From Datnioides undecimradiatus (lineage: Eukaryota; Chordata; Actinopteri; Lobotiformes; Datnioididae), in NCBI GenBank assembly GCA_008933995.1, contig WARS01000033.1, positions 11,604,686-11,668,685 of the forward strand: DNA of 64,000 bases, written 5' to 3'. The notes under the pieces were generated by a model. It searched no databases. It saw nothing but the letters and a program-made list of their open reading frames with translations, and was not told the DNA's origin. This document shows, one piece after another, positions 30,201 through 58,100 of the stretch. Position 1 is the first letter of the stretch; each line of letters begins with the position of its first letter. Position numbers and translations under genes: made by a program.

Positions 30201-30582
30201 TGCCATATATAGAATAAACATAGACACATTTCGGAGGCACGCCTTAAGCAGTAAAGTCTGTTCTGTCCCCATTCATCTCCGGGTTAAGTTGCACTGATTA
30301 CCATGACTCACTCAGTGACGTACATGGATATGGTGAATGTTTTATTCATTTGTACCTCATTAAATCAGTCGTAATCACAGAATGACACAAATGTTTATAG
30401 GCAAGAAGGATCATGTGATTAGCTGTTTACGTACAGGATCAACAGACTGTAACTCACCTAACTGAAGAATAAGAATTATGTAATTCCCCTTTTATGTGGC
30501 ATCAAAGCCCAAAGTGTTAAAAATGGATAAACAAAAAAATATAAAGTGTATAGACAATGTATCATACAAGAGTGTGTACACG

Positions 30583-30585
<3 letters not shown>
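24206..30585. other. Long noncoding stretch
   Basis: More than 6 kb without a convincing gene. A plus-strand frame at 24576-24920 (114 codons) is relatively GC-rich but shows no domain. The 165-codon frame at 27320-27817 runs through a short (CA)n at 27484-27498 and is judged spurious. A stretch ending AACTGGAGAACCACTG at about 29395 resembles a hAT-type terminal inverted repeat, with no partner identified. The rest is AT-rich with nothing recognised. Confidence 0.35.

Positions 30586-30624
<39 letters not shown>
30586..30624. repeat. (CA)n microsatellite
   Basis: About 19 pure CA units. Flanking ORFs on both strands are artefacts of the tract. Confidence 0.97.
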
Positions 30625-30626
<2 letters not shown>

Positions 30627-32632
30627 TACTACATGGATGGACAACCTGTCCTCTTCTGACCAGAACAGCACAGCTTCCAAGCACTTCATAACCTTACATG
30701 CCCTGCTGCCAATGCGTGCGTGTGTGTGTTTTTGTCTAAGGGAGTGTTTGCATGCGCGCACTCATGTTGTTTTGTATCCAAAGCCGATGTGAATATGCCT
30801 CAAACCATCTCTTTTGAATAGAAGCCTCATGGAGGAGCTTTTATGCCGTGTCATGTTTAGCTCTCAGTTTTTAAAATGATTATACTTGTAGAATAAAATG
30901 TCTTTGCAATCACTGGTCTGCCTTAGTTGATAATGCACCATTAAGCTACGCAGATGGGACACATTTTATTCTCACTAATGCATTTCATACATTAACATAA
31001 TATTGCAGTTGCTTTAATGTCGTGTATGCACTAGATGTTACAGAAAGGATACTAGACTATATTACAATTTTTTCCTCTTGGGTTATACAGCCATAGATAA
31101 TTTCCATAGAGGATATGGGAGCATGTAGTATTACTACTAATATTGCCTACATGTGACCTGGGATGTTGTTACAAGGTTGATCTAAAGATGTTATTTCAAT
31201 AATATATCAAATATGTAATACTATAATCATTAAACTTAAGGCCTTTGAAGATTTAAATATATAGAGGATTTGGCTAACACAAACATATATTGGGGGAAAG
31301 TAATCATATATGACTGAGCTGAGCATGTATCTAAATTAAGAATTGATCAAATGCTTAAAGTAGTAATGACAAATATGTATTAACTAATATGGATGAACAG
31401 ACAGAATTGTAAATCTAAATGAAAGCCAGAGTTGATCTGAAAAAAGATAAATAGTTGCCTCAGTGCTAATAGTGCTAACATGTTTATAAAACAATAAATT
31501 GTCAGTGTTGTGTTGGAACCAGCCAAATGGTCAAATAAATAAATAATAATCAACACCACTTCATGGTATGACTGATTTTAATTTTACAGTTTGGTGCATT
31601 TTATCATATTTTATTTTGTTCTCCAAATTCTGACCTTAAAAAAACCCCAACATTGTCATTCTTTCCATCTTTTCCATGTCCTTTGCCACATCCTTACATC
31701 CATCTCTACATCCAAATTAAGCAACACACCTGACACTGTATCCTGAGACAAGTGGAAGCTCCAGTGATGCAATGTCAGAAATAAAACTAGACTGCGAGTG
31801 TGTTTGACAGCCTTTGCCACTGCTTGTAGAAGCCTTTCTAGTGTCAGAGACTCGGTGCACTTTGTAGTTCAGGAGTTGAAAATGTCACATACCATGGCTG
31901 AATACTATCAATTTCTTTAAAGTCAACTCAACAAACTTGCAAACTTGTCCCGTTTGAGCCAGTAAGGTTCAATGAAGAATAATGATGAACGGACAAAGAC
32001 AGATTTTTTGCTCACGGTTTCTTTTTCATTTTCGAACTGGAACAGAAATTATGCTTTATTTAAGCCCAAATTCAAACCAACAGAATGGGGATAATGAAGC
32101 CTATTTTGTTAGAGTAAGGTGTAGCAGGATGAGAGATAATTCTGCCTTGAACTATGACAGACATCCAAGTCTGTCATTTCTATGCACAGATATCTTCATA
32201 TGAAATCAATATTATATTGCAGTTAGTTTAGTAGCATGTTAAATGTAACTCTGAAATGTAATCTTAAAATGAATTGTTTCCTTCTAGAGGTTGTTTTGCT
32301 TACTTCTACTTGCACTAAAATAATCATGCCTTATTGTTGGTGGCTGATCTTGAGTGCATTTCAATACAGACAGTGTATTGTGTGTTGTGTACTGTATCAA
32401 TTAACTGAATGAAATGGTTAGGATGCAATTAAACAGGAAAACACTTAATCAAATAAAAAAAAAATGAATCAAAAATGTTATAAATACAGACTGAACGATA
32501 AATTCCACCTATCCTGTGTCTTATGCTTGATTGGATGTGGTATCCTAAATATATATTCAAAATAGGTTAACAATCTTAACTATATTTAATTAGATTAACT
32601 TAATAGTCAAACTAAAAATTAAACTATTCAAT
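30625..32632. other. AT-rich noncoding stretch
   Basis: Very AT-rich from 30960 to 32630, with AAATAAATAAATAATAAT near 31533. No coding or repeat signal recognised. Confidence 0.45.
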
Positions 32633-32878
32633 TTATTCATTAACTTCCCCTACATGCATTTCTACGGTATCTGTGAGTGACTCCCTCTGTATTGTATATT
32701 TTGTCAGGGGGATTATATGGGGTTCTTTAACTGTGCGCTCTCCCTCATGCCTCTTGGTGTATGAAGAGCTGTTTTCTGTGCTTCCCTGCTCCATGCTAGA
32801 CTGTCTGTTTAACACAGCGGTAGATTTTATGATGTTTTCCAGTTCATTCCCTTTGGGACTGTCCTGTCTTTTTGCCAC
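32633..32878 (-). CDS. Coding-like segment, possible last exon
   Basis: On the minus strand, GCGCTCAG precedes 81 codons ending in TAA. The frame is also open upstream to 32920. The peptide is hydrophilic with varied codons, for example AKRQDSPKGNELENIIKST near its start, RHEGERTVKEPHIIPL in the middle and an acidic VEMHVGEVNE end. AATAAA overlaps the stop region (32628-32634, reverse strand). No domain is recognised. The acceptor lacks a strong pyrimidine tract. It could be a cytoplasmic-tail last exon of an unknown gene, or a chance frame. Confidence 0.33.
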   Translation of the reverse strand: MAKRQDSPKGNELENIIKSTAVLNRQSSMEQGSTENSSSYTKRHEGERTVKEPHIIPLTKYTIQRESLTDTVEMHVGEVNE

Positions 32879-33059
32879 CTGAGCGCATGCCCCATGATGT
32901 GCTATTGCACTGTAACACATTGACAGACTATGGACTCGTTATTGATTTCTTGTGTAGTGGATGTGCGTATTGTTAACTCCAGAAACTATTAATTTAAGTA
33001 CAACCTTCCGACCTGTCATTTTAATCAGCTCAAAAAATGCTGTTTTTGATTGTCCAGTC

Positions 33060-33156
33060 TCATTTTAACTGATGCACAAGGAGAGACGGGTGGGATCATC
33101 TCCAAATTTCCCAATTTGGGATGAATAAAGTCTATCTATCTATCTATCTATCTATC
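33060..33156 (+). mobile_element. LINE 3' end with (TCTA)n tail
   Basis: The sequence GGTGGGATCATCTCCAAATT, then CCAATTTGGGATGAATAAAG followed by (TCTA)n at 33131-33156, matches the usual 3' end of L2-like teleost LINEs. These end in an AATTTCCC...GGGAT-AATAAAG phrase and a tetranucleotide tail. The body upstream is too degraded to delimit, though 32880-33060 may belong to it. This is a 5'-truncated, non-autonomous remnant, plus strand. Confidence 0.6.
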
Positions 33157-35070
33157 AAATGAGTGTAGGCTAAAAGTCTTCAGTGCTGCATGAGCAAGGG
33201 ATAAAACCAAATGCGACAGACTTTAAGGGCTATAATTATACCTGTTGGTGTCCAGCATATGTACATGCCTTTCATTTTGTGGCAGCAATGGCCTATGGGG
33301 AAACTCAGTACTGACCCAATCAAGTTCACAGACTTTCATGTTTATAGTTATTGCCTGTACTTTGCTGTGGCTCAAAAAAAGAAAACAGATCCTATAAAAA
33401 AACCCTGAAACAATTTTCTTAAAGAGAGTCAAATAGTCAAGATTTTTACATGGGCCATAGCCACTAATTTGCTCTAAAGGGCCTCACAAACTATGCAGCA
33501 TGACCAGTGATCTCCTCCCCACCATTAAGACCGGCTAAGAGGTAGGTTACACTTAAGATGCCAAACTCAAGGACCCCACTCACACTGAAGGAGTCTAAAC
33601 AAGGACACCATTTACACAGAGGGAGAGGGGGAGTATAAAAACAAAGCTGTTATTCATATTTTAGACTTGCCAATGTTTGGTTGAGGCCTAGAGATTACAG
33701 TGGAAGACAAAATTGAAAAGAATGAGTGGGCGAGGAGATGTGTCACACCTCTAGAGAAACAGCACATTTCTGTGATTTGCATAAATGTATGCAATTATCT
33801 CTAATGAGGCACACAAGAAGCGACATAACATGCTCTTCTTGTGAAACCCACTGGGGTATGGTCATCTTCAGGAAACATTTAGTGGATTTGTAGATGCAGG
33901 TCTATTGATGGAGGACAAATGTAGTGTTAGAGAGAGTCAGCTATGATATTTAAGATCTTTGATGAAGTGTCGACAGTGAAGCATGATTGGGCTTAAAGGC
34001 TGATTCATTTGAATGCTGGAGAAGTACATGTCATAAAAAAAACCATTTGCATGCACACATCACACTTGTAAATTTCCATTCATGATGGCATAAACAAACA
34101 TTGCACCATGTTGCCAGGGCATAAAACACCACTAAATGTTATTGTGTATGCTCAATCATCCAAATATGTCAACATGCTATTCTGGGTGAGAAAGACATTT
34201 TTGATTTTGTTTTGTTTGGCATCAGTGATTTCCATCTTTTGTTGCCACTCGCTGAGTCTTTCAAGTAATTTCCTTAAGAAAAACACAGGGTACTGCTGTA
34301 CTGATATGGTAGCTATGGAGAGGAGATGCTTGTGCATTTTGCTGAGCACAGACAACACTTAAACCTGTAGTTTTCACTGATTCTAGTCTTTCATTATATT
34401 GGACTATTTTTTAAAATATTTTGTTTGTATTCCATTATAAAGATGAACAATCCAATCCAATTAGTCCATTAATCCAAGTTTTTTGACAGGAAAAATCATC
34501 TAATTTAAGAAATGAATCCCCAATAATTATTTATCAACATGTAAGATGTTGTTGAATTGTAATTTTAAGTGTCAACAACTTCCCTGCCTTTAAAAAAAAA
34601 AACATCTTTTGTGATGTAAGAGCATCTTTACAGCGATGGCAATATTTCACACATATTCATTTTTTTGTGCAATGTTACAGAGGAGTGTGGGTGCAAGGTT
34701 GTTGTTTCCACCCCACAGGAATACACAGAGATACAGAGTCTACAGAGTCCCTCATGTCACAACAGTGGAACTTAAAAGCCTGCCATCTTTAATTCCCATG
34801 AGCATTTGCAGCTGTGTCCTCTGAGGGATTTATCAGCACCCATAGCTCCCTTGAGGGTCCTCCTTTTGGATTTACACAGGGAAGTCACCCACTGCAAGAG
34901 ATGTTTTGTGTTACATTTTAATGGAAAACAAGGGATGTTTGGGTGAGGGTTGGGAGGGAATAGTTTTTCAAAGTTAAATTACTGTGTAGGGTTTTTTCTT
35001 TCAGAGATAATATTTAATATTTTTAGCTGACAGAAAATTATTCAGAACAGTTAAATAATAACAAATTCTT

Positions 35071-35073
<3 letters not shown>
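33157..35073. other. Noncoding, nothing specific seen
   Basis: No supported gene. 33480-33830 is less AT-rich and lacks repeats, but no motif cluster is convincing. Confidence 0.4.

Positions 35074-35121
<48 letters not shown>
35074..35121. repeat. (ATT)n microsatellite
   Basis: About 16 uninterrupted ATT units. Confidence 0.97.
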
Positions 35122-35824
35122 GTTATACCAACTTTTTGTCCTCAAATACTAGTGAAAGATGCTCCCTTAAGAGATTTCAGAAAGTGCCATTCATACATCC
35201 ACAAGCACGGTGGCAATGTGTTACACTTGCACCTAGACTGTATTATACCTAAGACTAGACTGAGACCTCTAAACCCCAGCTGAAAATTGCTTTGAAGCAG
35301 AATCCCCGTTTCTAGTTCATCAGTTCCCAATGGGGCCTTGCATAACTGGTGAGAGAACATAAAAAAAAGACATCATTGTTAATGCAACAAATGATGCAGA
35401 TGAAAAGACACACTCAGGACAAACAGAATGTCACTCATGCTTACTGCAATGAGAGGCTCTATTGTTTCTCCAAATCCTGGATTTAGAGTTGGGTCTCATG
35501 CAAGTACAATGAGTGGTTTCACACTGTATTTTATCTACAGACTGTAATATTTCCAGGAACACTGTAATGCAGTTTATCTCTCCAAACTGTGTCAAAGTTA
35601 ACTTCTTTAAATGAAAAATCCAAGGCACCAGAGTGGCTTCCATATTCTGTCATTTAATGATAACTACTAAAAGTTTCATTAACCCATGTGTTGTATTTGT
35701 ATGTATATATGTTGTTGTTTTTTCATATATTGCTTAATATAATAGAAGTTGGAAAGTTATGATCATGGTTTCATAATCACTGCATCTTGTCCAACTGACA
35801 TTGGTTATACATGTTAATCTCTTC
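35122..35824. other. Noncoding, nothing specific seen
   Basis: Short ORFs on the minus strand only, none with coding character. Confidence 0.4.
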
Positions 35825-36045
35825 AACCCATTCATCCACCTATCCATTTCCTCGCACTTCTCTATCCAGTTTGCACTAACAGCAGGCTATGCAAGGCACC
35901 CAAACAAACTTTCCTTCATGTACATGCTCCAGCTGCACCTTTGACTACCGAGATGCCAGGGATGCTCAAGATGCCTCCACTAGCTCCTCTTATTGTGGAG
36001 GAGCAGTGCTAATATGATATGCACACATCCTCAGTTTCTGATGCT
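35825..36045 (-). mobile_element. RTE/Rex-type LINE 3' fragment, degraded
   Basis: Read on the minus strand, this stretch contains CTGCTCCTCCACAATAAGAG, GCATCCCTGGCATCTCGG, GCAGCTGGAGCATGTACATG and GTTTGTTTGGGTGCC. It ends in AAATGGATAGGTGGATGAAT, a decayed (ATGG)-type tail. These blocks correspond to the end of the reverse-transcriptase ORF and tail of a common teleost LINE whose copies end in GGAAGAAAATGGATGGATGG. It is 5'-truncated and substantially diverged. The exact family (RTE versus Rex) is not resolved by eye. Confidence 0.55.
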
Positions 36046-38464
36046 CTTAAATACAACATGGCCCTGTGAAAGGAGAGCAGCAGCTGCTAGCTCTAACCGT
36101 TTTTAGTCTGTATACCAAGTTACATGCACTTTATGTGTAATCACCAACACACCCAGAGATACGGGCAGTGGCAACGTTGCTTGTTTGCCAGTGCACATTT
36201 CTGCTTTGTCACCACTGACCTTAAACTCCAGCAGAGAGTAAGCATCTAAATCAGGGTCAGACCAAAGCTTGTCGCAGATCACCCCGTATGACGCCTTATT
36301 AACTGGTGAATAAATTCTTACCTCCAGTTCTTGCTGAAGAACAAACTGTGTTTACTGGATTTCCTTAACCGTTTTTCAACCGAACTTGTTTTGCCTTCAG
36401 CTTTCTCCCCCCACAACAAAGCATCATAACCACCAAGTTTTTGTACAGTGTAAAAGGATCAATTTGTCCCTTTTGCATTTTAAAAATGTACAGGGTGTAG
36501 TTCACCAATTATCAGTACAATATTATTAACTTTTCATGAGCTAATTTGTGAAATTAATTTATTAAATGTGTACAATGTGCTGATTTCATTTTACTGATAA
36601 TATCAGACTCATTTCCTTATGGTAAATTTTTAAATTGGATGTCTACTCTGCTGCCTTCCCTGTACCTTTTTGGTGCTTTAGCCGTGATCCCACAGGTCTA
36701 AAAGCTTGGCTTGTTGATTGCCAAATAGGTAAACACATCAAGCATGCAACCACTGCTCTGACTTTTACCTCTGGAAATTGGTACACCCTCAGGCCCTTTA
36801 GAAAAGAAAGATCAAGTCTGTGTTGTATTGTTGTTGTTTTTTTTTTAGCTCCACAATAAATGTTAACAAGGCATTCAATTTGATGTCTGGCTGGGTGGTA
36901 CCAAGAAGTGACAAAGTAAATCTAATGAAGACAAACACCATCAACCTCCTGGAAAGAACTACTCTAATGCAGACACACTCTTGAAAGGCACTTTCAACAT
37001 GCACGCACAAAATACACATTAATGCAATGTTATGCATAGACATACACACATGCTCACAAGCTGATCATGTTCACAAGCAATACAAATCATTGTCAATTTG
37101 TAAACCATCTCTCTCAGGCAAAGCAGATTATTTAAATGAAATGGAAAAAATAAACAATTAATAAAACAATACTGACAATAGATGGACAGGATGAGAGACA
37201 CATTATGGCCTGATGGCCAACCAGAGCAGGAGATTTATGGAAAATAAATATTGAAATATTTATGTTACTGGCATTCCTGGTATATTGTGTTTGAGAGAAC
37301 ACAAGGTCACCACAAGAAAATAAATAAATATGACAAATAGGAATATATGACCAGTGAGCGAAAGATCAAATAACAGACCAAGTGATACAACACGACAGAC
37401 TTACAGACACACTGGTCTACTAACCATCATATGAACCAGACCAAAAGATCAACATTTTTGCACGTTTGCCCACAAATACAAAAAAGATTGAAAGAATGTA
37501 AAATAGCTACATTTATATAAATTAAAAATGATATTGCCATAACTTGTTTTGTACAAGCTTATATTGTTAGACAGGTAGATGATAGATGACTGCAGGGAAT
37601 GGAAGTTATAATGTCCCAGAAAAGTTTTTGCTCCAATTAAATTACTCATGTCAAATATGTTTACATCCTTTTTCAAAAATGTGTAATTTTTCCTTGCCTT
37701 GCTATAACAAAAAGTCACCTCGCTACATGTGTAAACCATAAATATATAGTATAAGTACAAGTATATACAGACTTAGCTTAAAAACACAAATTGCATTGAC
37801 TTACCAAGGCATGCACACACCTACACACTGACTTCCAAACTGAACTCAGCTTAAATAGACCCCTCCTCAGCAGGGGTTAGTCAAAGCTGTACCACCTCGG
37901 CAGGTGAATTCAGTGCCTCTGCAGGAAGCATTTAACTTATGAACTCATTCAGGTTTAATAGCTTCCAGGAAGAAACACTCTGACATAAAATATATAATGC
38001 ACTTGAAGCTATGAATTAAAAGATCACAATCAACAAAAATACTGTAGTAATCTAATTTAGCCCCCCTCCCAAAAATGATCTAACCCAGTGCCATCACTGA
38101 TGATGTCACTCAGTGTATAAATACAGGAAGTAGTTGAGTGCCTCTCCCTTTTGTCTCTGGAACACATGGTGTGTGTATGGTAAGTAGCAAAGAAAGAAAT
38201 TTACTAAACATGAAACACAATGTTGTATGCTGTACTAATATGATTAAGATGGGGCCAAATGTTGTGTTATGTCTCACTCAAGAGAGAGGAACACAGGCAC
38301 TCAGATATCCAATCTAGCTTGAGCAAAGGCCAGCCATTTTAAAAGCAGTCCAGTCCAAGCTAATGGAGCCTGACAGAGCATACACAATAGTATAAAGTCA
38401 TAAGACAGAAAAAAGCAGTGGGTGTTGGCAAAAAGAAACTTTCTAGCTGCTAATTAGAATCAAA
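36046..38464. other. Noncoding, nothing specific seen
   Basis: Around 36120-36440 there may be further degraded repeat sequence. 37440-38110 is AT-rich. No gene signal. Confidence 0.4.
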
Positions 38465-38480
38465 CTGCCCCCTGCTCAGT
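38465..38480 (-). promoter_or_regulatory. CTCF-like motif, minus strand
   Basis: Minus-strand sequence ACTGAGCAGGGGGCAGTT matches the vertebrate CTCF core (CCASYAGRKGGCR) at AGCAGGGGGCAGT, lacking the leading CC. Plausible insulator/loop-anchor motif. Occupancy is unknown. Confidence 0.4.
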
Positions 38481-39047
38481 GAATGGGTGTCTTTGGTTAG
38501 TTAAACATAAGGATTGTTTCCCTTGTAGGGTCACAGAAACCCTGAAACAGGAACTTCTACTTCCACTTAGTTTCCTGAAAAAACACTGTATTGGTAAAAT
38601 GCTGCACAAGTGGGTGGAGCTAAAAACTCCAGCCCATGAAATTATCTCACACTTTTTTGGAAAAATATTTCACTGCTCCAATAGGTTTGTTTCAGATTTC
38701 AGAAACCGCTTCATATGGCCTTTTGACTCCGGCTGTGGTGGATGTACCTCTTCCACCTCAAATGTGGTTAAAAAAGACCTTGATGATGCTATGTAGTCAG
38801 GTTTGTGACTTTCATTGAGCACTGTTGTTGTGGCATGTAGGGTCATGGTTGCCTTACACCCCGAGGTGCATTGGGGCACAAGGGCCCAATCATTGCTGCT
38901 TGCAGCTGTAATTTGAAATGTATCTGCAAATATAAATAAGCTGTGAGAGCTGCCACAAACTTGTTTAAAGGTGAAGCATGACATTTAAGCATTCTTCAGC
39001 CTAAATTCACAGGTTATAAAAGACTTGCATCCTCATGTATGTGGGCG

Positions 39048-39048
<1 letters not shown>
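38481..39048. other. Noncoding with overlapping chance ORFs
   Basis: Overlapping frames of about 104 codons on both strands (38479-38796 plus; 38670-38984 minus) do not resemble known proteins. Mutual overlap argues against both. Confidence 0.35.

Positions 39049-39105
<57 letters not shown>
39049..39105. repeat. (TG)n microsatellite
   Basis: About 28 uninterrupted TG units, one of the two longest pure dinucleotide tracts in the window. Confidence 0.97.
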
Positions 39106-39106
<1 letters not shown>

Positions 39107-40569
39107 TGTCATGTTTGCATTATGTGATGTTTGATTGACAAAAAAAACCCGAAGGCCGTCCTGCTCTTATTAATGATACACCTTTGACATGTGATGACAT
39201 CACTGACAGCCTCTGTATTATTTAATATGATGTCCCTGGGAAGAACAGTATGCAACCCTGTGTTTGTGAACCAAGATGCAATAAGGCAGCACTGTCATCT
39301 GTGTCTGTGTTTGTATTTACGTGAAGGTAGAAAATATTACATTTGCAATGATGGATATTCTTTGCAACTGTCCCTTTAAGCTGCTTTTACAACTTACTAT
39401 GCACCTCTTGATTCCCTGGGTGTCACTCTGAAGTGTCCTGAAGGCCTTACCTATCACAGCAGACCGAGCTAAATTTGGAACTAGAACTTTTTGCTGGATC
39501 TTTAGGATAGGACAGAAAACCCAGAACTGAGAAGTAGTTTCCGTATTTCACACAGCACTGAGACTTTTTAACCTAGATAATAAATGAACCAAACCAGGAA
39601 TTATTAGTTTATAGTGTTGGTATGGTGAAGTTGGCATATTTTCATATTTTGCAGATATACATACACATATACATACATAAATATATATACAGATATGGTT
39701 TACTTTGTCCACAAGATATGTGCATGATATAGATTTATTTATTTATTTTCAAGCACTGAAACATCAATTGCAGTTTTGCTACCTATGAAAATCATGAGAT
39801 TAGTTGGGAAGCTCCAGGACAGCTACAGATCTTGTAGTTGGACTGTCTTCTCAAAAACTGTATTTGAGAGCACGAATTAACTTAAGAATGAACTTGTTAC
39901 TCCACAGATTTATCAGACGACTGGGGCTGCCAGTAATTAAGGTTAAAACAGAAACCATAAAGCAAATATAAAGCAGGTATGGTACAAAGATGCCAACGTC
40001 AGTGTTTTCTAACAACAAAGTTAAGTCAATTTGATGGATTTACTGTCCTTCTAATTGTTAAATTCTAACATTGGTGTTAAAAAAAAGAAAATATGAAGAA
40101 GTAAAATAGAAGAGATGGATAATGGCACATTGGGCTTGTCTTTTCACTGTGAACTCTGTCACTTGTCAGTTAGATTATTCTCATTAGCACCCACTGAAAA
40201 GAGATCTGCAGGTGGGGGTCTTGAATAATGCTTCCCATTCAAATCCTTATCAGACACACATTCAAACAGGTCGGCAGAGCGTGCAGTGAAATTGTAAGCC
40301 TCCCAAGCCCTCAAAACCTTTCATGTGCTTCCCAAACCCCGATTTTTTTTGCCATGATGGATTCAGTGTATTAATAATAGACAAGGCCACTATTATTCTG
40401 GGATATCCAATTTAAAGTGATGAAAAAGTAATACACTGAAGCTTGAGTAAAATGAGAAATATGAGAAAAAAGATACAAAGGGGTTTCTTAGACTGAGGTG
40501 ATGTGCAGAATATCATATTAGTCCAGTGTAAATTACTCTTGTGCAATTTACTAAGTGCTCATAGTATTG
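39106..40569. other. Noncoding; possible enhancer block near 40140-40330
   Basis: AT-rich. 40140-40330 is a complex, unrepetitive block with GTTAGATTATTCTCATTAGC and CTTATCAGACAC (GATA-like) words. No coding signal. Confidence 0.3.
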
Positions 40570-41420
40570 AAAACCTTGGCTGGGCTCCTGAGACCAGATG
40601 CATAAAATTTTATGGATTCATGACTAAAAAGCCTGTGTATGCACAAAAGTAGAAATATGCAATATGTGCCAGATTTATGAACCTCTATGTACACAATGGC
40701 CATTGTCATACATCTCAGTCACTGTTTAATCATGCAAACACACATGAGCCTAATGATGCCTACCACAATGCACTCAGAAATGCACCTCTCAAAGCGCCAC
40801 GCCTCTGCTGTAGTTAAGCATATTTATCAGTTAATGTAGATAATGTGATGACTGTTTGAAAGTTAAACACCTCCCCACAATGTGACCATGTAAAGTGATG
40901 ATGTGATTGGTGCTCTGCGCAGGTTGAATATGGCCACCAAACTGCATGCACTGATTTGAATGATCAGGTTGTAATTTGTACCACACTGACAGGTGAAATA
41001 AAGCCAAGAGAGTTTTCAGGCAAATGCTGTCTGTACAAACCCATAAAGACCACAGTAATTAAACTTCCTGTTTGTGTTTTTCACCGTCGTTTACTGAAAT
41101 AAACTTTTCCTGTTTGTAATGGAAGACAAAAAGTTTGATGAGATGTGTAATTTACCATTATCATTGAATAATGTTTGTTGCTTGCTAAAATCTGACAAAT
41201 ATGGATTTAAACAATACCAACAAAACAATTTTAGAAGGGAAAAAATCACAAAGTATCAATATGGCAGGCAATATGGTGAATGTCTGAGTTAAAATGAAAG
41301 AAAATGCGCACCATTTTTTACATGTAAGTGCAGCTTAGGAAGATCAAATATTGGCTGATTGATATGTCTGTCAGCTTCTACTTACTTTCCTGCCAACCCC
41401 CAGTGCTATTTTCTTTTCAG
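40570..41420. repeat. Possible MITE-like interspersed element
   Basis: Begins near CCTGAGACCAGATGCATAAA and TGTGTATGCACAAAAG, phrases I associate with Harbinger-type non-autonomous repeats in fish. It continues through CCTCTGCTGTAGTTAAGCAT, GGTGCTCTGCGCAGGTTGA and GAATGATCAGGTTGTAATTT. Terminal repeats and a TA/TAA-rich target duplication were not demonstrated, so limits are approximate and the family is inference. Confidence 0.35.
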
Positions 41421-42119
41421 CCAACATAGTCAGAACAGCCCTAAAAAATGCTCTGGATGGCATGGTGATGTGCAAACAAATCCATCTCCGTGACAAATAT
41501 GCAAACTTGATGATGGCCAACGTACCCATCAAGGCATATCTGGTGAAATACAGATATGGTTTTACAGTTACAGATAGAAAGTGTGTGAACCATGTTAGAT
41601 TGTTTCCAATGAGGTCCCATTTTATTTTATTTCAAAGAATGATTATTTCACAAATCAGTAGAGTCTCTGCTGTGGTACTGTCCTTCACAAAGTGTAGAGG
41701 AGAAACATGTGTTAGGAAGACACTTGACATTTAAGGGGTTTCTTCACTTGAAGAGATGTAAAATGATGTCTGAGAAATTAGCCAACAAGGGGGTGTCTCC
41801 TAACACATGTATTCAACCCTGTCCCACACTGGGTGGATTAATTGAGCCTATTCATCACAATGACTGGATCAATTTACCCTTTGAGAACCCCAGCCCCCTT
41901 TATACAAAATTAAGTGAATGAAATTTATATTCTGTTTCTTCTTTACTCTCTTCCTTCCCCCTCTCTCTCTTTCTGTGCCATACGCTCTTTTCCCTCTCTC
42001 CTTCTCTCTCCACCTTTTCCATATTGTTCTAAAAGCCTCGGGGGAAGTGTGGGAGAGGAAAAGATAGAGAAAGCATGAAGTATGTAAAAAAAGAAAGGAG
42101 CGCTCACTGCCAGAGAGTG
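41421..42119. other. Noncoding; pyrimidine-rich tract
   Basis: 41935-42025 is a CT-rich tract that generates long Arg/Glu-rich chance frames on the minus strand. The plus-strand ORF 41462-41734 (90 codons) has no recognised domain. Confidence 0.4.
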
Positions 42120-42400
42120 ATGACAAATCCACTCCAAGCTAATGGAATACAAAGACAACGTCTCCCTAATTTTCAATCCAATTACCTTGTGATTAATGCT
42201 TTAAGTGGGGGTTGTTCGTCAATGTGGTCGTCACTCACTTCACCTGATTAAATAGCCAGATCTTTGCCAAAACAATCAGTGACAGACTTGGTGCTGCTCT
42301 TATTGTTACTCAAGAGGCGGACTATGGAGGAGAGAATCAGGCAGATTATAATTAGGTTGTTATGCAGATTAGAGATATTGATTTACGGTTTAAGCATGTA
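42120..42400. promoter_or_regulatory. Candidate conserved noncoding element with homeodomain/NKX-type sites
   Basis: Unrepetitive block with AGCTAATGG (42138), CCTAATTTTCAATCCAATTA (42165-42184), GTGATTAATGC (about 42189), TTAAGTGG (42201-42208, an NKX2-type core) and GATTATAATTAGG (42344-42356). Motif density and sequence complexity suggest a developmental enhancer. Function is inference. Confidence 0.33.
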
Positions 42401-43068
42401 GGTGCATGTAGCCACTCCACCTCACCCAAATTGTCTTTATTTCATTCCTGAGAGTCATCAGACCGGAACCAATAGAAGCATTTAAGGGAAAAGATTGATA
42501 TTAGTGTTCAGGATCATTATCAATGGCAAATACATTTTTTTTTTGCTAGTTGCTGTTTATATTGAACATGCCTGGGTGAGCGTTTTCAGAGATAAGATAT
42601 ACAAATGGAACATGATGAATTATTTTTTCCTCCTTGTTGTTGTACTGTGACGCAGTCCCTGTTTACATTCTCTCAAGGCCCATCAGTGCTGCAATTGACT
42701 TTGTACAGTCGAAACTCGATTTCACCAGGAATGACAAATATGTTGACTAGTTTAATTGCGACAAGGTGTGTGAGTTTGTTAGTGTGCAGTATTTTTGCAT
42801 ATATGCAGTATTTTCTGTGTGTGTTTCCAGGTATCATACTGTGCCTGTATGTTTGAGTGTTTGTTAGTATGACCTTGAGCTGTATGGATTTGCCAGGTTT
42901 ACCCCACGTGCTAATCTTCAAGCTGTTTTTCACTAAAATGTTGCCTCAAGCATAACAATGGAAGCAAATAGAATTGTTTATGGTGATCACAGCAGTGAAA
43001 GCAAGAAATGAACATTTAAAAAACAAAACATCTCTCACTGGGAAAAAAAGATCTCCTTTACTGAGGAT
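42401..43068. other. Noncoding, nothing specific seen
   Basis: Short ORFs only. A T run sits at 42536-42544. Confidence 0.4.
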
Positions 43069-43444
43069 CAGTGGTTCCCAGCCTTTCTTGTTTTTGCTTA
43101 TGAGTTCAGAGAAACTACCTGCAACCCATGGACACATTTTACCTCATTTTACCATAATGATATTTTTTGACGCATAAAGAGGTCAAGCTTCAGAACAGAA
43201 AAATACATATTGGAAGTAAAGAAAATAAAAAAATTATTGATTTGACCTTTATTTGACCTGCAGGTTGGATAATCCTCCTTTTCTTCAAAAGAAAATACTT
43301 CCAATAAAAGTGGCTCACAATGGAGTCTGTGGATTTTCTGGAAGAAGTGGACACGTGTAACAGCTGTCTGCACCTTGTGTCCTGATTCCATGAGGGGTAA
43401 GTGAGAAAATATGGTTTTGTTATTCGGGTGAACTGACCCTTTAA
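43069..43444. repeat. hAT-like non-autonomous repeat
   Basis: Starts with CAGTGGTTCCCAGCCTTTC, close to the CAGTGGTTCTCAACCTTT terminus of Charlie-type hAT elements. It closes with TATTCGGGTGAACTGACCCT and TTAA, a phrase recurrent in teleost repeats. The two ends are not inverted copies of each other, so this may be one element with a lost end or two abutting repeats. The interior carries no transposase. Confidence 0.45.
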
Positions 43445-45969
43445 GGACACTCAACAAACACACAGGCTCACACAGCAATGTTGAGAGCATATTGCTGCAG
43501 GAAACAGACCGCACCTTGCTGAAACAACTGAGACGGACTGTAGATCACCTAGGTGTGCTGTAGTGGAAAGGACAAAAGCAAAGAAAATAAACAGCGAGAC
43601 ATCCCTGCACTGCAATCAAGAGAAAGCAGCCGTAATGGAATGGGATGTTTACATGCCTTGGGGCTGTACTGAAGTGTCATTATATGGAGATAGCGCATAA
43701 TTCTTGAGCCAGGTCTAGGCAGAAAAAGGAAAAAAGAATATGAGGCTTGGCAAGGGCTTGTTGTGGCCTTAGGGCTGATGCCAACCAGCTTGATTGGTTG
43801 TTGTGCTATTACTGTACTTTTTTGCCTCACCACTTGGCACCTACCCTTAATATCTTCTTTTTTTAATTTGCAAAATTAATACAAAAAAGTGATTGCACAG
43901 GTGACACATATAACCTACTATGGTGTGTTTACACCAGAAAGGGGCATACAATGACCACTCTAACTGTACAATTTCTTCTGTAAAAGGCTTTTTGGAAAGT
44001 ATAAATCTTGGCTCAGATTAATCTTGAAATAATGCATGTTGAGCAAGCAGAATCTCTTCCTTTTCTATCTGTCTTTCCTGGTGTAATACATTTCTTTTAA
44101 GTTAAGAATCCGCCACTTAGATAAATTAAAAGGTCCCCCCATTATATGACTTTGTGAAACCTTGTGATGATTAGGCAACAGAAAGCACCTGTCAGCATTT
44201 ATGTACTCATCCATCAAACTGCTGGTGGATGGACATTAATTCATTCAGTGTAGCCCATCGTGACCTGAAACATGCACAACTACCTGGATATTTCATTACT
44301 ACAAGCTTTAACTGGACCAAATAATGTACGTGAAATTATATACATCAGAGATTGTCAAAGTTTTGATCACCAAGTTGTCGGCATATGATTGAGGGCTACA
44401 TAATAAAACTGTAAACTTGTAGGTATATGACTAGTTTTAAAATGGTTTGTAACATTTAAAACTTATGAAGCACTCGCTTCACATGTTTTCGCATATGTCA
44501 GACGACCGTATCTCCTCTGTTGTCCAACAAAGTATCATTCACTCTGCTTTTATTAAAACCTTCTTTTCCCAATAGAGAATAGAGCACTTTCCATCCCACT
44601 TCCACATTAAACTGCTGATTAGCATTGATGATGGAACACTAACCCTGCAACACCTGCAAGGTGCCATTAGTTGTAAAACAACCAGTAGCTTTCAACAAGC
44701 TGACATTCGTGAGCTGCAAGATGCTTGTTAGGGGCACAGTTTGGCTGAGAGGTATAATAAATGTAGGGTATTTCAATTGAATAGTTAAAATATAATGCAT
44801 GTATTTCACATTATGTTCAGGGCTATCACAACATGTTTCTGTGGTCTGCCATTGGTCTGCAAGCCATACTTCAAGAAATCCCCATCTGGGTTTTGCATAC
44901 AGCTTTGTTAATTTTGTGTGTTGTTTCATTGGTCATGAAATAAGACATATTTTGGAATTTGCATGTGATCCACATAAATATTTGACTTTAGAACGAAAAT
45001 GCTGATTGGAAAAGAAGTTTGTGAGAAATTAAATCTGATCAAAGTCTTTGTACCAGCTGTGGAAATAAGACATGAAAACTGATATTTAATATTAAACGGG
45101 GAATCTCTATTTCATGAAAATCATCTGGTGCACAAAGACAGATCTTTACAGTCCAGTGCCAAGGCAGGCTGGCTGTTACATGAAGGTACCTCTTGGCTGC
45201 ATTGCAGATATAAAATTCATATTCTGTGGCCGAAGCTTGATCTTCCTCCTTCTCTCTGCAACAGGGCCTGAACAGAATGTAATCATGGGAGAAAAGGGGG
45301 GATCAGTCTTCTGCTCTACCTGCCCCTCTGTAACTCTCTATTCCTAAGTCTATCTGCAGATTTTAAAGAAATGTATCTGATGTTTGATATTATTATTACG
45401 TTAAAGTGCCCATAAAAGTGGTAAATGTTGGACAGTTTAAGGGTTTACGGTTTATTTTCCTTTGAAGGCAGAACTCTGCCATTGTTGCCGTGGTGACACA
45501 ATTTGCAGTTCTAAATCAAATGTCAGGCATCTGTTCATAAGCACAGATAAGGCAGACATAAAAATAACTCTTAGTAAGCCCAGGGAATGTTAATTTTTTA
45601 GACTCGATACACAGCAGGCTATAAACCTATCTTGTAAAATCTGGCTGGAAGTGTGTGAATTATTCTCTACAGATGTACAAAGCACAAGTCAGGAGTATTA
45701 CTGTCTAAAGAAATAAATGCCTTCTGCATTGTTGTTCTGCTGAAATATCACCGTCACTTGAGGTTGTTTCTGTCCTCGAAAGCACTCAGCAGTTGTTTAA
45801 ACAAGCACTTTTGGCTTTTCACCATGAGGGCTAAAATGAACCGAAGCCAAAGCGAAGTTCTCCAATCGGGGAGGTTTAAGACAAAGAGTAGGTAGGCCTT
45901 GTACATGGATGTTTCAGTGTACAGCAGAGTAAGGGGCGTGAAAATAAAAACAAAAATATTAAAGAAAAA
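43445..45969. other. Noncoding, nothing specific seen
   Basis: AT-rich. ORFs of 70-100 codons on both strands overlap each other and show no domains. Confidence 0.4.
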
Positions 45970-46115
45970 AGATGACTGACTGGGTGAGTAAGTGGCTGAG
46001 CGATCAACCGAGCAATTGAATGAGTAATTCAACAAGAGTGTGAGCCGGGGGACTGATCAGCCGACTGACTGACAGTGAGACAGCTGACTGATTGTCTGAG
46101 TGACTGATGTCCAGG
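45970..46115. repeat. Cryptically simple TGAC/TGAG-rich region
   Basis: Degenerate tetranucleotide sequence dominated by TGAC, TGAG and GACT units, for example GATGACTGACTGGGTGAGTA at the start and CCGACTGACTGACAGTGAGA near 46061. It looks like a decayed tetranucleotide microsatellite. Confidence 0.65.
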
Positions 46116-46163
46116 TGAAGCTTTACCGGTTCTTAGCATACTAATCATGACATTGCACAGGCA

Positions 46164-46204
46164 GTGGGGGGGGGGTGGGGGGGTGAAAGTGAGAATAGAG
46201 GATT

Positions 46205-46237
<33 letters not shown>
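46164..46237. repeat. G-run and (GA)n purine cluster
   Basis: 46166-46183 is ten G, one T and seven G. 46209-46237 is an uninterrupted (GA)n. The plus strand is purine-rich from 46164 to about 46260, so G-quadruplex or triplex formation is possible. Confidence 0.92.
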
Positions 46238-46239
<2 letters not shown>

Positions 46240-46735
46240 GGAAACAGACAGAGATGGAATAGCAGCAGGTGAGCAGAAGGAGCTGTGTGAGGCTTCACTG
46301 GAGTGCAGTTCCAGGTTGCTCTAGATAAGACTCAAACAGGAAATTGCAATATGGAAGCGCAGTGTCTCAAGTGGAATACTAAGAGACTCTCTCTGCCTTT
46401 CCTCTCATAAGTCTTCCGTGGAGGACAGCATGCCATTGAAATCTTTAATGCTTTGTCTTTATGATTATTACCATGGCACTAAACTTTGTAATAGTCATAT
46501 GAAACTATGTAATTGCTCTAATTATGAGGCCTTACTTCCTCTTCATCTAGTACCTACACGCAGCTGGCAGAATGCAGTTCCATAGGAAAACTAGGAGTTT
46601 ATATTAAAGATTACTTAATGAGTTACTGTTAAAATTACTTTACCTTGGAGTTTTCAGTTTAAATCCTTTTTTGTGCCACTGTAGTGTTTCTGAGGCATCA
46701 GAGAACACATTCAGATCCAGCAGATCTACAGAGCA

Positions 46736-46755
46736 GCCAGCAGGGGGGAGTGCTG
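46736..46755 (+). promoter_or_regulatory. CTCF-like motif, plus strand
   Basis: GCCAGCAGGGGGGAGTGCTG matches the CTCF core closely (CCAGCAGGGGG) and deviates only in the 3' half (GAGTG rather than CGC). Orientation is opposite to the motif at 38465-38480, pointing away from it. Confidence 0.45.
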
Positions 46756-47214
46756 ATCTCTGCTAAATGTGACAGATAAGACTCACATACACACACACAA
46801 AATCAGGTATTTGTTTCATAGTTCATTTTTAGAACAACCACATGATCCATTGTAAGCTTTGTACCTCAGATTCTGTTTCCCCAGCAGTTCCACCAACTAC
46901 AGGTGACAGTTTACTATTGTGAGCTGTGACCATCAAAATGCACTCAAACTTTCCTGCCAAACTGCCAACTGAACGTGTTTTCAACCAGGCAAAAGCATCA
47001 CTATCATCATTTGTTGCCAAGCACAATCTCAACTGACACATCTGTGTACCTGCAGCTGCAGCATGGATGAGGTACTCACTGGTACAAGTGGTACAGCACT
47101 GTAAATTACAGACTGTAGGTAAAACTACCACTGCACATGATACTCTGCATGTGCTTCAGTCCCCCCACCATACTGCAGAAGAAGTCCTAAAGAGACAATA
47201 GTGGCTGAGGCAAA
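46756..47214. other. Noncoding; no convincing insulin A-chain exon
   Basis: Searched on the minus strand for the A chain expected downstream of the insulin-like exon. A Cys-Cys-x2-Cys pattern occurs at 47084-47098 behind a CTACAG acceptor, but the A chain requires Cys-Cys-x3-Cys and a second cysteine eight residues later, which is absent. Confidence 0.4.
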
Positions 47215-47400
47215 ATGGCTCTCAGGGCCTCTGTTTATATATCCCAAATTTTGTCCAGCTTAGCGTGCTAAGCTTCAACTCAAACTATAGAAGACAGTTA
47301 CGTTTACTCAGCAACTGAATCACAAAAGCAAACACACTTCATCCAACAGCTCAGCTTGGCCACATATTTAATCTGTGTCTTTTCTCACCAAGCAGAAAGA
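47215..47400. repeat. Dispersed repeat, copy B
   Basis: Partner of the copy at 1-225. Shared ordered blocks include AAACTATAG (47283), TTTACTCAGCAACT, CAAAAGCAAAC, CTTCATCCAACAGCTCAGC. A GTGGCTGAGGCAAAATGGCT phrase precedes this copy and a related GTGGCTGATTTGGCTCTCAT follows copy A, so the two copies may have different internal arrangement. Confidence 0.45.
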
Positions 47401-47868
47401 TCCCATAGAAATCAAAACAAATCAGGATCTGGACAAAAAAAAAAAAGAAAGTTTGAGTTCAACATAATTCACTTCACTTGGTTGTCATCCCCTGTTTTAC
47501 TGCGTAATGCTGAAAAGCCTACTACTTATATGATAGTTACAGTACTGGAATTTTGAAATAAAGCTTTCAGTATTGGGGACAGACATTTTAGTGAGGACCA
47601 CTCCTTATTTGACAAGTTGAATTGCAATGCAATTTGGTGGACTGGACCAGTGGCCAAATTGCTGGCAGCTGCTGCCTTTGGAGGGTGGAAACCTGATGGG
47701 ACAAATAGTTAAGGGCAAAAATCATCAGCTGCTTTAAAGTTGACACAAAGCTTGGAGGGACTGATCAGAGGCCAGAGCTGAGGGATAAACATGCCTGAAA
47801 CATTGTCCTGGTCAATGTTATCAATGTTCCTTCATCATTGGAATTGTATTATATAAACTGTAGCGCAC

Positions 47869-48131
47869 CTCAGTGAGACTATTTTGTGTGTTTTGCAGTT
47901 GGTAGACTCTTGCAGCTCAGGGTCTGTTGTTCCTCCTGGGGTAGAGCGCAAACCTCTGTCCCCACAGACCATGTAAAAGATCAAGACCAGGTTAGCGCTA
48001 CAGAGGTACTGTGAGCCAATGGCCTGAGAGTCCATGCAGAGCAGGACTAGAACTAAACTAACAGAGAGGCAGGATGAAGATAAAGCACTGCTCTGGTGTA
48101 TTTTTGGTGTCATTTCTAAGGAAGGAGCCAT
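47869..48131 (-). CDS. Diverged insulin-family exon (signal peptide plus B chain)
   Basis: Open minus-strand frame with ATGs at 48131 and 48113; a CAG acceptor abuts the first ATG, as in insulin genes whose intron 1 precedes the start. A signal peptide (core CLSVSLVLVLLC) ends near DSQA. Then comes QYLCSANLVLIFYMVCGDRG, aligning gaplessly with insulin B chain residues 4-23: CysB7 (48000-48002) and CysB19 (47964-47966) are 12 residues apart, and LeuB6, LeuB11, ValB12, TyrB16, GlyB20 and GlyB23 are kept. The next residues, P-G-G-T-T-D-P-E-L, match the P-K-R-D-V-D-P-L-L start of fish C-peptides. Oddities: GlyB8 is Ser, HisB10 is Asn, PheB24/B25 are Leu/Arg, and the Lys-Arg processing site is Gly-Gly. 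Exon end uncertain: weak GT after 47908 near the usual intron 2 position, or better GAG/GTGCGC at 47869. No A-chain exon found. It would be a secreted hormone-like peptide if functional. Loss of the cleavage site and GlyB8 favours a decaying paralogue. Confidence 0.6.
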
Positions 48132-48687
48132 CTGTTCCTACAAACTTTAAAGAACACATATTTAAATTAGCATTTTTCCTCCTACTACCCCACCCTTTAC
48201 AGTTAGTAACAGTCCCATGGCATCAGCCATACCCACAACCGTACACATGCCTGCCAGATAGTGGAGCATGATTCATGGGTCTAGACACCATGTGCATCAC
48301 TGATCTCTTCATTACAATCCATTCCAAGTTTATAAATGGAGATTACAGGTTGCAGTGTGCTTGGTTTAATTCACCTAGTTAGCAAAGGCTGTGGCTGAGG
48401 CTGCCATACTCAATATTGACAACTTGCAAACAAGGGGTGAAGCATAAATCATGAATGATAAATATTTTTTGCAACACTGATTTTACAAACCTCATAATTA
48501 ATAAAACAAGACCTTATTTCTGAACTAAGGCTTCAACTTGCAGCACAGCACTTTCCATAATCTTTGAGAGTTATTAAGTGGTAATAGGGCATGAAATGCT
48601 AAATTGATGATTTAAGTAGTGTAAGGCCTGAAGCTTATTATACTCTGTAAGTAATAATGCAGGCACACAATCTGCCAGACAAGGGAC
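48132..48687. other. Noncoding upstream of the insulin-like exon
   Basis: On the minus strand this would be intron 1 or promoter of the insulin-like gene. No TATA box or exon 1 could be placed with confidence. Confidence 0.35.
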
Positions 48688-48688
48688 T

Positions 48689-48734
<46 letters not shown>
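48688..48734. repeat. (GATA)n microsatellite
   Basis: About 11 uninterrupted GATA units. Confidence 0.97.
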
Positions 48735-50159
48735 TCTACACAGTCACAAATATGTATGCAGATCAGCACACTCCCACACTTAACCTACATTTAGCACAAA
48801 AATCCTTAAACAATAACAACTCCTGGCTCTCCTCCCATGTACAGTGTATAAATTAAGAAAAAACATAAACATACTGTAGAGCCGTTAACAGTGTTGCACA
48901 TAATGCACATTATGACACTGTTACAATTATGGCATTGTTTTATAGTGGCTTGTGAAAACACTGGCATAATTAACACACTGCGTATGAGCTACAATAAAGA
49001 TAGATAGACCTCCTGTCAAAACTTGGTAAAATAGCACTTTACTAAGCAGGTCTCCTTGTGGTTGATTTAAACTGTAATCCATGAAGGGAGGGAATTATCA
49101 TTTTAGCTGGTTGAAGCAACACTACTTGGCTCAGTGGAGGTGTATGAGCTCTACGCTTTGTTCTTCATCTTGGTGTAATTTACTGGCCTGGCTGGGTTGT
49201 ATATTTTCCGTCAGTCTCCACGGACCCCAGATCCATCCAACTCACAAAGCAGAGGCAGCAGCGTCAAGCATGACACTGTCATATTGTAACTGACAGCACA
49301 TCCTAAGGTAGACACATATCCATACAATAGGTTGCTCAGTGACTCCTAGGGAGCGCGAGGGACTCTTATTAAAAGACTGACACATAGAAGGGTCATAACA
49401 ACTTTTCTCCTATAAATGAAAACTTATGCACATATAATGCAAAGGCCTTAACACAAACCCAAACCTGGGATATGATGAGGATGACCATGTTGATATTTAA
49501 TTTAAGAGATTGTGATTTTTGTATGCCACTTTATTCAGTCTTGATGGATTAAAATAAAATAATGGGAGATGCAACTGTAATGTTTTCCTATAGCTTATTT
49601 TCTATTGAATCGATGTATCTCCGTATCCCAGTAGGCTTGATGTTCTTTAATAAATTGCCTTTCTTTGCCTATATGCTAGAGGACACACATAATAATGTTT
49701 GATTTAAAAATAACTAAGGTAGCTATTGCAGGTTAGGGATGCTACTACCTTCCCAGGTACGATTTATTTCTTTTCACAGTGAGACCTTAGAAAGCTCTGT
49801 TAACGTTCTGTGAACGTTGCCTGCACAGTAGCATGCGGCAGTGAAGAGTGTGAGGGCTGGCTGGGTTGGCTGTGTTGTTTAAAGGAAGTGTTCTGTTGCG
49901 GGGGCAGGGGTCCATTATCCAGGCTGGCTAATGGCACAGAGCTGCAGGATTTTGCTGGTGAAAGCAGCCTTAAGGTAGTGTTGAGGTATGTCATGTCATG
50001 ACTAGATGTCCAATGTAAACTTTTCAAAACAAAAACAAACAACAACAACAAAAACTGCTCCAGTGTGACCCCAATGTACATTTTGAGGCACAGTGCCATA
50101 CTTTTCTTCCTTGATCACATACAGAGTTTGATATGTACTGAATTCTCCTGGCTTCTTAT
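48735..50159. other. Noncoding, nothing specific seen
   Basis: AT-rich. A GATAGATAGA fragment near 48999 is a minor simple-sequence echo. ORFs at 49800-50099 (minus) and 49810-50001 (plus) overlap and lack domains. Confidence 0.4.
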
Positions 50160-55137: not shown

Positions 55138-58100
55138 TAAGACGGATGGATCACTTTAGCCATACCTCTGCTAAAAGATGCCATACCGAGAGATTGAAGC
55201 ATTTAACTGTGGGTAAGTACTCTAATTACTTTTGCTGTTACCTGCTGCAAACCTGGTCAATATTTAATGCTTAAAGTATTCTCACTATATCACCTTCTTT
55301 TGCTACATGTTTCTGGCCTTCAGACTTCATGGACACTACATGGAGTTTGCAATTATACTTACATGACACAAAAGCAGTCGCTCCACAATAGCGAGCATCT
55401 TCCGCTGTTTTGTACTTTATGTTCTACCTTCCCACAAACAGTATAGGCAGAGCCTTTTGCCTTCCACTGTCAGAACACACTTTGTGAAATTGAAGAAAAA
55501 TCAAATATTAATCTAAGCTAGAACAGGCTAAGCCTTTCTCACACTGAAATTTCATTTTGATGTTCATTTTAATCAGTACGTGATGAAAGACTTAAACCTT
55601 TGGTGAGGTCTGGGCATGATGGGCCTTGGCAAAATTATGCCAGAAATGCACATACTGCAGTAGAATAAAACACTGCTTTTCCCATTAAAAATTGCTAAAA
55701 CAGGTGGTGAAATTGAACTGCATCACCTGATTGGTGTAAAGACAGCTGTGTTACTCCACACCAAACCTTAGAGCCATTGATTGTCAGCTTCTAAAGTATG
55801 TTAACCACAACATCAATCAGTTTGTGATGGGCCTTTGTCATTACATGTCAGATTTTACATCATTATTAAAATTGCAACTGGAAGATTGCACCAGGCTGAA
55901 GTGCTTCCTTTCTCTCCTACTGTGTGCTTGCAACACAACTGGCTGCAACAATTAATTCTAGCAGTGTCCTGTCTGTTGTAATAGAAGCTTGGTTCAGTGA
56001 TGTGCATGGTTTAAGATTTAATTACCCTTAAAAGTAGGAAGGTAAGAACTGAGTATGGGCAAGTGTACGTGTGCTTGTGAGTGTGTGTGCGTGCATGTTT
56101 GCTTACGATGGAGAGAGAAAAACAGAAAGAAAGCACCACCAACAGCATTCACCTGCACTACTATGTGTGTAAACATTTCCCATACACTTCAGCAGTTTGT
56201 AGACCTCTACAGAATATTTGAGACATGTGAGAAGAAAATAGAGTTCAGGAATTAAATTACCTTGCTTTCCGCCTTCTGTGTTGGAGAGCATTCAAGTTTG
56301 CACTCCCTGATTCCACTGAATTACTTCCTCATACTGATTCAGGAACCATAAAACTGTCTCTTGAAATCATTGTGGAGAGCCATGGTGGCAAACAGCAATA
56401 AGGTCACTAAAGGAGCATAACATTGCTATGAACTGTTACATTGGTGCATACAATACGAACCAAACACTATACATCACGAGAAGGCTCTGACAGCAGAACC
56501 CCTGAGGCTCAAGACGTTGTTTAGCAAACTACTGTTATTGAGTTTTTCAGTGCTGTCATCCGTATAATTTCTCCACTGTTTCCGAGCCACCCGGGCTTTA
56601 CTTTAATACAGGGTATTGTGAAGTGTATAATCCAAAGTCATAATTCCCTGTGCTTCATCTACAGTGAAACATTCATACATAGTAAGAATAAAGCAGCACT
56701 TCTCTTCCTATAGCTGTTTTGTTGTGCTTCAAAGAGTAACTCTTATGATAAGCACTGAATTTACACATTTTCAATGACTGCTTTCAACTGGACATACAAT
56801 TAAAGGCCAATATCTTTCCTTTCAGTTGAAAGTGTCTGACCCAGGACCCAAGTATGCCTATGTCAGTGTTTTATTTCTTGTTAGTCTTAATAATAATAAC
56901 CTCAAACACATTCAAAATAAATTTCCAGAGTTCTGACTGAGCAGCTATTTGTATTTTGCTGGCGGTTGCTCAAAAAACCCTAACTCAAATCTCAAAAGCC
57001 TCGCTGTTGCTGTCCTTACCTTTACATTCTTTAAGAAGAGCAGTTACATCAAATATAACCTGTAAAACTGTTATAGTACTGAAAGTTAATCTGCACCATC
57101 CAGCCACTTTGAATCAGGAGTTCATAAGATATATTTCTACAATCTAATGTGATCCCATTCAACAGCTCCGCCACAAATTCTGCCTCATAAACACAATAAT
57201 CTTCAGCATTTGATCGACACCGTCAGACTGGTTTTCATATGAGAAACACCTCAATTTAATATACTCCAGTGCAACACCTCCACCCAGTAAAACTTCAGTA
57301 ATAAACATAAGATTGAATTATTATCTTTCTCACGGTGCAAACCAAAAACCTAAAAATTACAAGTCAGAATTCATACCACAAAACCAGTCTGGGTAAATTG
57401 GGTAACTCTATATTATTATACTATTTGTACAGTAGGTGCAGATGTGAATATTTGTGTTTGTCTATGTGTGTTGGCCCTTTACAAGACTAGGACGTCTCCC
57501 AAGTGATATAGCTATACAGTGTACATGATACCGCAGCGTGTATATGAAATGTGCACATCACTGTAGAAAGTAACTCTTGGCCAGAGCTCCAGAGTGAGTC
57601 ATGTATTAGTCATGTCCTTGGACTGTGCTGCCCGAGTTGAAAAGTTGTGTTTTGCGGCTGTGAGTTGAAAGGCAGTGAGAGCCCTTGAGCAGGAAATGCT
57701 GTAATAGATATGAGAGTGTTAGGCCCAAATACAATGCTATTATCACGTTGTGTGTTTGAGTGTATTTGTGTATATGTGCACATGTTTTTGTGAGTTTGTA
57801 TGTGTGTCCATGAGACTGCCTCCTTGGCAGAGACCAGCTGCTCACAGCAGCTACATCAGTGGCTGTAGGCATGTAATTCTTCACATCAGCAGTTCTTACG
57901 GATGGAAAATGGAAATGAAAAAAGCCCCTGGAACAACATTTGTCTCGCATCACACATGGATGTGTATCTTTTTTATACAAATGTTTCAAATGTGTTTCTT
58001 TTTTCTATTTTTAAGAACTTGGTCAGCTGAGTCTGTAGACGTGAGTTGCTATAGCTTTACACCTCTGCCTTTCTATGTCACTTCACCGTCACAGTTGATA

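Follow-up and report, generated by a model that had tools for sequence, protein, structure and literature searches.

A probable decayed insab-type insulin gene near an sh3pxd2b-like gene in Datnioides undecimradiatus

Results and Discussion

Features of the locus

The window, i.e., the whole stretch of 64,000 nucleotides analysed here, is the final 64 kb of contig C478 in a genome of 581 Mb. Its minus strand contains the remains of an insulin-type gene, referred to below as the window copy. According to the available part of Irwin (2019; PMC6591164), a percomorph duplication of insa gave insaa, found beside nipal, and insab, found near sh3pxd2b, while insb is located beside hmmr. The features of the window copy are as follows:

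47912..48131, minus strand: what remains of exon 2 in an insab-type insulin gene, with an apparent signal peptide, the B chain and the C-peptide start
47937..48011, minus strand: insulin B-chain core QYLCSANLVLIFYMVCGDRGLRSTP, with Ser B8, Leu B24 and Arg B25
47931..47936, minus strand: Gly-Gly where the intact gene has a Lys-Arg processing site, by comparison with the intact copy
47910..47911, minus strand: AA at the position of the intact gene's donor GT, by ungapped alignment; apparent donor loss
47693..47911, minus strand: intron remnant of 219 nt (197 nt in the intact gene), its start alignable to the insaa intron
47867..47868, minus strand: cryptic donor-like GT (CTGAG/GTGCGC), a candidate only
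47660..47692, minus strand: exon 3 start after the acceptor CAG (GTTTCCACCCTCCAAAGGC...), with the C-peptide motif GF-x-PPKA
47536..47604, minus strand: expected place of the A chain, with no significant resemblance; a weak 'GVV...FQYCN' is within chance

The frame that starts with the ATG at 48131 stays open for 98 codons, ending at 47835, and the exon 2 remnant has a second in-frame ATG at 48113. The translation from 48131 (MAPSLEMTPKIHQSSALSSSCLSVSLVLVLLCMDSQAIGSQYLCSANLVLIFYMVCGDRGLRSTPGGTTDPELQ...) begins with what was judged by eye to be a signal peptide, in agreement with the preliminary description, and continues into a B chain where CysB7 and CysB19 are kept with 11 residues between them, i.e., the Cys-x11-Cys arrangement with an insulin core that is expected of the Insulin family (PF00049). 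CGDRG is present, and the C-peptide starts with TTDPEL, a motif of the DPxL type; the two cysteines and these motifs, as well as Ser B8, Leu B24, Arg B25 and Gly-Gly in place of Lys-Arg, had all been read correctly in the preliminary description. The end of the exon had been placed at 47869, and here the comparison with insaa indicates otherwise: the homologous boundary is 47912/47911, and 47869 precedes the cryptic donor-like GT.

A phmmer search against the PDB found an insulin B chain as the best match (E 1.6e-4, query residues 40-65). The Pfam results speak against the assignment to the insulin superfamily in that PF00049, although the top or only family matched by the frame, scores a weak 15.9 bits (E 0.028), under the cut-off of 23. 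The window exon was also absent from the 10 matches of a genome-wide PF00049 search (E <= 1e-3, 13 candidates scored). The 601 nt between 47700 and 48300 occur once in the genome.

Relationship to the intact insulin genes

Searches with PF00049 revealed two intact insulin genes, one on C478 (matches 9753544-9754001) and one on C467 (matches 4535355-4536308), and IGF-type places on C334, C471 and C472, which were assigned to igf1 or igf2 by eye. Near-identical igf1-like exons, also recognised by eye, are found at matching places of C471 (7972025 bases) and C472 (7967159 bases), and these two contigs may be unmerged haplotypes or a recent duplication. The intact gene on C478, insaa (9753544-9754061, minus strand), is situated 1.9 Mb from the window copy on the same contig and has the exon-intron-exon layout in common with it, the intron being 197 nt long versus 219 nt; unlike the window copy, insaa keeps the donor, the Lys-Arg sites and the A chain. 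The C467 gene, insb (4535355-4536368), likewise has an insulin B chain in common with the window copy, but it is more distant and has another neighbourhood.

When the genome itself was searched at the protein level, the best other place was insaa (E 6.1e-6, 38% over query residues 22-79, in an alignment that crosses one TAG of the insaa intron), the second was insb (E 0.041), and the two insulins were followed by three places at E 1.9-5.2. By this pairwise comparison, the window copy is closer to insa than to insb, as expected of insab. At the DNA level, a blastn comparison with insaa gave 72.5% over 120 columns and extended into the intron. The promoter side and the 3' side of insaa aligned with the window no better than with random places (38/60 and 31/60 of which reached the score).

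Splice sites and the A-chain region

The ungapped alignment across the exon end, where insaa reads CTGG/GTGAGTCCACCGACT and the window copy reads CTGC/AAGAGTCTACCAACT, places AA opposite the donor GT; 11 of the 13 bases after this dinucleotide are identical, as counted by eye and with no shuffle control. A longer local alignment with insaa reaches the acceptor CAG and GTTTCC..CCTCCAAAGGC at 47692. Of the phase-1 C-peptide intron with donor and acceptor that characterises insulin genes, the window copy thus retains the acceptor, the donor GT having become AA. As the alignment runs into the insaa intron, the window copy appears to carry intron sequence and hence not to be derived from a spliced mRNA.

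The 33 nt of the exon 3 start were the best of 1652 tiles covering 124 kb on both strands (score 41, next 28). In an earlier random control, this score was reached by 5 of 2000 pieces, possibly including the true site itself; the tiled control was used for that reason. In the ancestral frame, exon 3 reads GFHPPKAAAASNLATG... up to a stop at 47528-47526, and another frame stops at 47607-47605. After a hypothetical splice from 47868 to 47692, exon 3 would be read in a frame other than the ancestral one and would run into the stop at 47607-47605.

The A chain, for which a search downstream on the minus strand had been suggested, is not recognisable in the window or in the 40 kb below it. The CC-x3-C-x8-C pattern, which in the Insulin family follows the B chain via the C-peptide, matched once in this range, counting the two strands together, at an unrelated site 83 kb away; this match (minus strand, C478 ~11568829) lies between exons of the sh3pxd2b-like gene and has flanks unlike GIVEQ. 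When the pattern was relaxed by one cysteine and 30000-50000 was viewed, a single minus-strand string at 42994 appeared and was rejected. The best tblastn match of A-chain queries was one of 8 residues at window position 11452 (E 0.11), with nothing at the expected place. The string 'K*GVV...FQYCN' (47610-47536) occupies the right place in exon 3 and was rejected as evidence on random controls: the exon-tail alignment score was reached at 1214/5000 random places (506/1500 in the free-end version) and the protein score at 2078/5000 (934/2000 with the insb query), and when the exon 3 tail was aligned locally, 672/2000 random pieces did as well. Among the cysteines expected of an insab protein, B7 and B19 are present and those of the A chain were not found.

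Protein constraint

In 25 shared codons, insaa and the window copy differ at positions 1/2/3 in 9/5/8 cases; the counts are 2/1/13 for insaa versus insb and 10/5/16 for the window copy versus insb. The last count has a third-position excess, which the constrained branch of insb itself would produce. A count over 35 codons (15/10/12) includes two codons crossing into the intron, so the 25-codon set and a set of 33 exon codons were used. For the latter, the comparison of the window copy with insaa gave dN 0.448 and dS 0.497, with a bootstrap omega of 0.35-2.37 that exceeded 1 in 40.8% of replicates. Compared with insaa, the window copy shows no indication of being constrained at the protein level, at low power, and the wide dN/dS interval may also accommodate weak constraint. 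A run of 19 identical nucleotides between insaa and the window copy over VCGDRG is longer than a random spread of differences would lead one to expect (23/10000 permutations, post hoc). In a simulation with substitutions only and no indels, 17-21% of 61-codon exons stayed open at 0.30-0.37 changes per site, which makes the open exon 2 frame weak evidence for a living gene.

Gene neighbourhoods

The neighbourhoods were compared after PMC6591164 had been read. A match to the NIPA family (PF05653, 1.9e-22) was found at C478:9744267-9744617, 9 kb from insaa, and a match to HMMR_C (3.4e-34) lies 1.2 kb from insb. On the side of insaa, the open frames of C478:9753001-9783000 include some that were recognised by eye as histones H3, H2B, H2A, H4 and an H1-like protein, i.e., a histone cluster; about 20 kb from the insb-type gene on C467, there is an exon matching the CYFIP family (PF05994, 7.4e-16).

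Near the window copy, the minus strand of C478 carries an SH3PXD2-type gene, of which five exon pieces were located from position 11569833 downwards. With human 2A and 2B sequences as queries, the summed bits were 273 for 2B versus 261.5 for 2A, a modest margin, and 2B was favoured by three of the five exon pieces. With the fifth exon of this gene as a query, four places were found in the genome, and the C478 place had the top single 2B score. In a PDB search with one exon of the gene, the five matches, with E 0.0099 at best, were all to neutrophil cytosol factors 1 and 4, and the gene is not among the 70 matches of a PX-domain search, its PX region spanning several exons. By this modest margin, the neighbour is probably sh3pxd2b rather than sh3pxd2a. 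The three neighbour predictions from PMC6591164 hold, the third with the 2B-over-2A margin just given and at a distance of 82.5 kb from the exon 3 remnant. The comparison of synteny proposed earlier thus places nipal near insaa, hmmr near insb and an sh3pxd2b-like gene near the window copy.

Origin and status of the window copy

In the available part of PMC6591164, intact insab proteins have a signal peptide in 14/14 cases and perfectly conserved cysteines throughout. A B-C processing site is present in 2/14 and not predicted in 12/14, a C-A site is present in 9/14, and a two-chain insulin would be possible from 1/14. The same part of this source gives a dN/dS of 0.48-0.51 for insab, reports its loss in several lineages, mentions further insulin copies in some species and proposes that intact insab modulates insulin release. 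PMC8051583 also concerns insab, judging by its title, and literature searches on insab, insaa and sh3pxd2b turned up no experimental study of insab.

The window copy resembles the insab of that account in its derivation from insa, the sh3pxd2b-like gene nearby and the lost B-C site, and also in the signal peptide, the B-chain cysteines and relaxed constraint. It differs in the lost ancestral donor and the unrecognisable A chain, whereas the published sequences, as far as the available text goes, keep all cysteines. Most likely, the window copy is what is left of an insab gene, now a pseudogene rather than a new hormone. A probability of roughly 0.86 is given to the scenario of a decayed insab in a fish of percomorph type. 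According to this scenario, insaa would have been copied by a DNA-mediated event, as suggested by a gap of intron size that is alignable with the insaa intron at its start, and the copy would have landed near sh3pxd2b and later died; decay would have followed, with the ancestral donor GT changing to AA, the A chain becoming unrecognisable and the differences spreading evenly over codon positions. Any transcript would yield at most a secreted B-chain-like fragment that lacks the pairing partners of B7 and B19, i.e., the cysteines of the A chain. With the ancestral donor lost and no A chain recognisable, the window copy would be unable to make insulin, and the anatomy of the gene points to a pseudogene that presumably makes no hormone.

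The preliminary description offered a decaying fish insulin paralogue or one that changed its function and is no longer cleaved. The former is supported by the homology to insaa, the exon 3 remnant, AA at the donor, the A chain that can no longer be recognised and the sh3pxd2b-like gene nearby, which is expected for insab. The latter resembles what the available part of PMC6591164 suggests for intact insab; as the intact genes described there keep all A-chain cysteines and the window copy has no recognisable A chain, a changed function is unsupported here. The exon had also been titled unexpected. Its B-C processing site is lost, as claimed, but insab and the loss of its sites are already described in that source, so the window copy is less unexpected than the title implied.

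A living gene with a changed product, namely a secreted protein that resembles the B chain, lacks an A chain and could, e.g., compete with proinsulin in the secretory pathway, seems unlikely. Such a product would arise if translation of exon 2 continued into the former intron (98 aa) or if splicing used the cryptic donor at 47868, and it would fit the 98 open codons from 48131, the conserved 19-nt run at VCGDRG, the four cysteines that follow the apparent signal peptide (by eye) in the read-through form, and the modulation of insulin release proposed for intact insab. Against it stand the flat codon-position profile relative to insaa with dN close to dS, the share of simulated exons that stay open anyway, and the missing A-chain partners of B7 and B19. 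Ser B8 speaks against it as well: in the available part of PMC8514764, GlyB8 of human proinsulin is called invariant and Ser B8 is a neonatal-onset diabetes mutation, as the preliminary description had it, though Ser-B8 insulin retains substantial activity. A more particular version appears quite improbable: the window copy would encode a secreted single-chain protein resembling the B chain, whose reading frame has gained part of the former intron and whose VCGDRG turn is kept by selection, and which acts on insulin or its processing without an A chain.

A low probability also applies to a transposition of insaa in this lineage alone, independent of the duplication that gave percomorph insab and followed by decay of the copy after landing. 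The location of both copies on one contig, the extra copies reported for some species in the available part of PMC6591164 and the 82.5 kb to the sh3pxd2b-like gene would suit such an origin; however, the dS to insaa, at about 0.5, points to an old copy, the gene that insab should have nearby is there, and the PF00049 and own-genome protein searches found no separate insab elsewhere, the places at E 1.9-5.2 being left aside. That a random open frame resembles an insulin B chain by chance, for which the sub-threshold Pfam score and the absence from the genome-wide matches might be cited, is opposed by the PDB and own-genome E-values, the DNA homology into the intron and the exon 3 start in its place; the collinearity of exons and intron with insaa renders it very unlikely.

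Interpreted as decayed insab, the window copy would document an advanced stage in the history of a published gene whose function is unexplained. In intact insab, the cysteines were kept while processing sites were lost, and this had been a hint of a function. A lineage without the donor and the A chain would add to the reported losses and suggest that insab is dispensable.

Other features of the window

The surroundings of the exon had been called an apparent gene desert; none of the 10 long ORFs scanned, out of 86 of at least 80 aa, had a Pfam match above the cut-off. Rfam gave 0 matches at gathering thresholds over the whole window. Pieces at 38224-38526 and 57150-57205 are common to the window and the insaa region; they lie outside the gene, look like dispersed repeats by inspection and were set aside. 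At 38224-38526, two short blocks (78% and 87% identity) match C478 ~9765642-9765969, upstream of insaa, in the same order and orientation, and are probably copies of a dispersed repeat. On the plus strand, an open frame of 181 codons at 27272-27814 has no Pfam match above the cut-off, and a strong negative GC skew (-0.210) is found around it, at 26-28 kb of the window.
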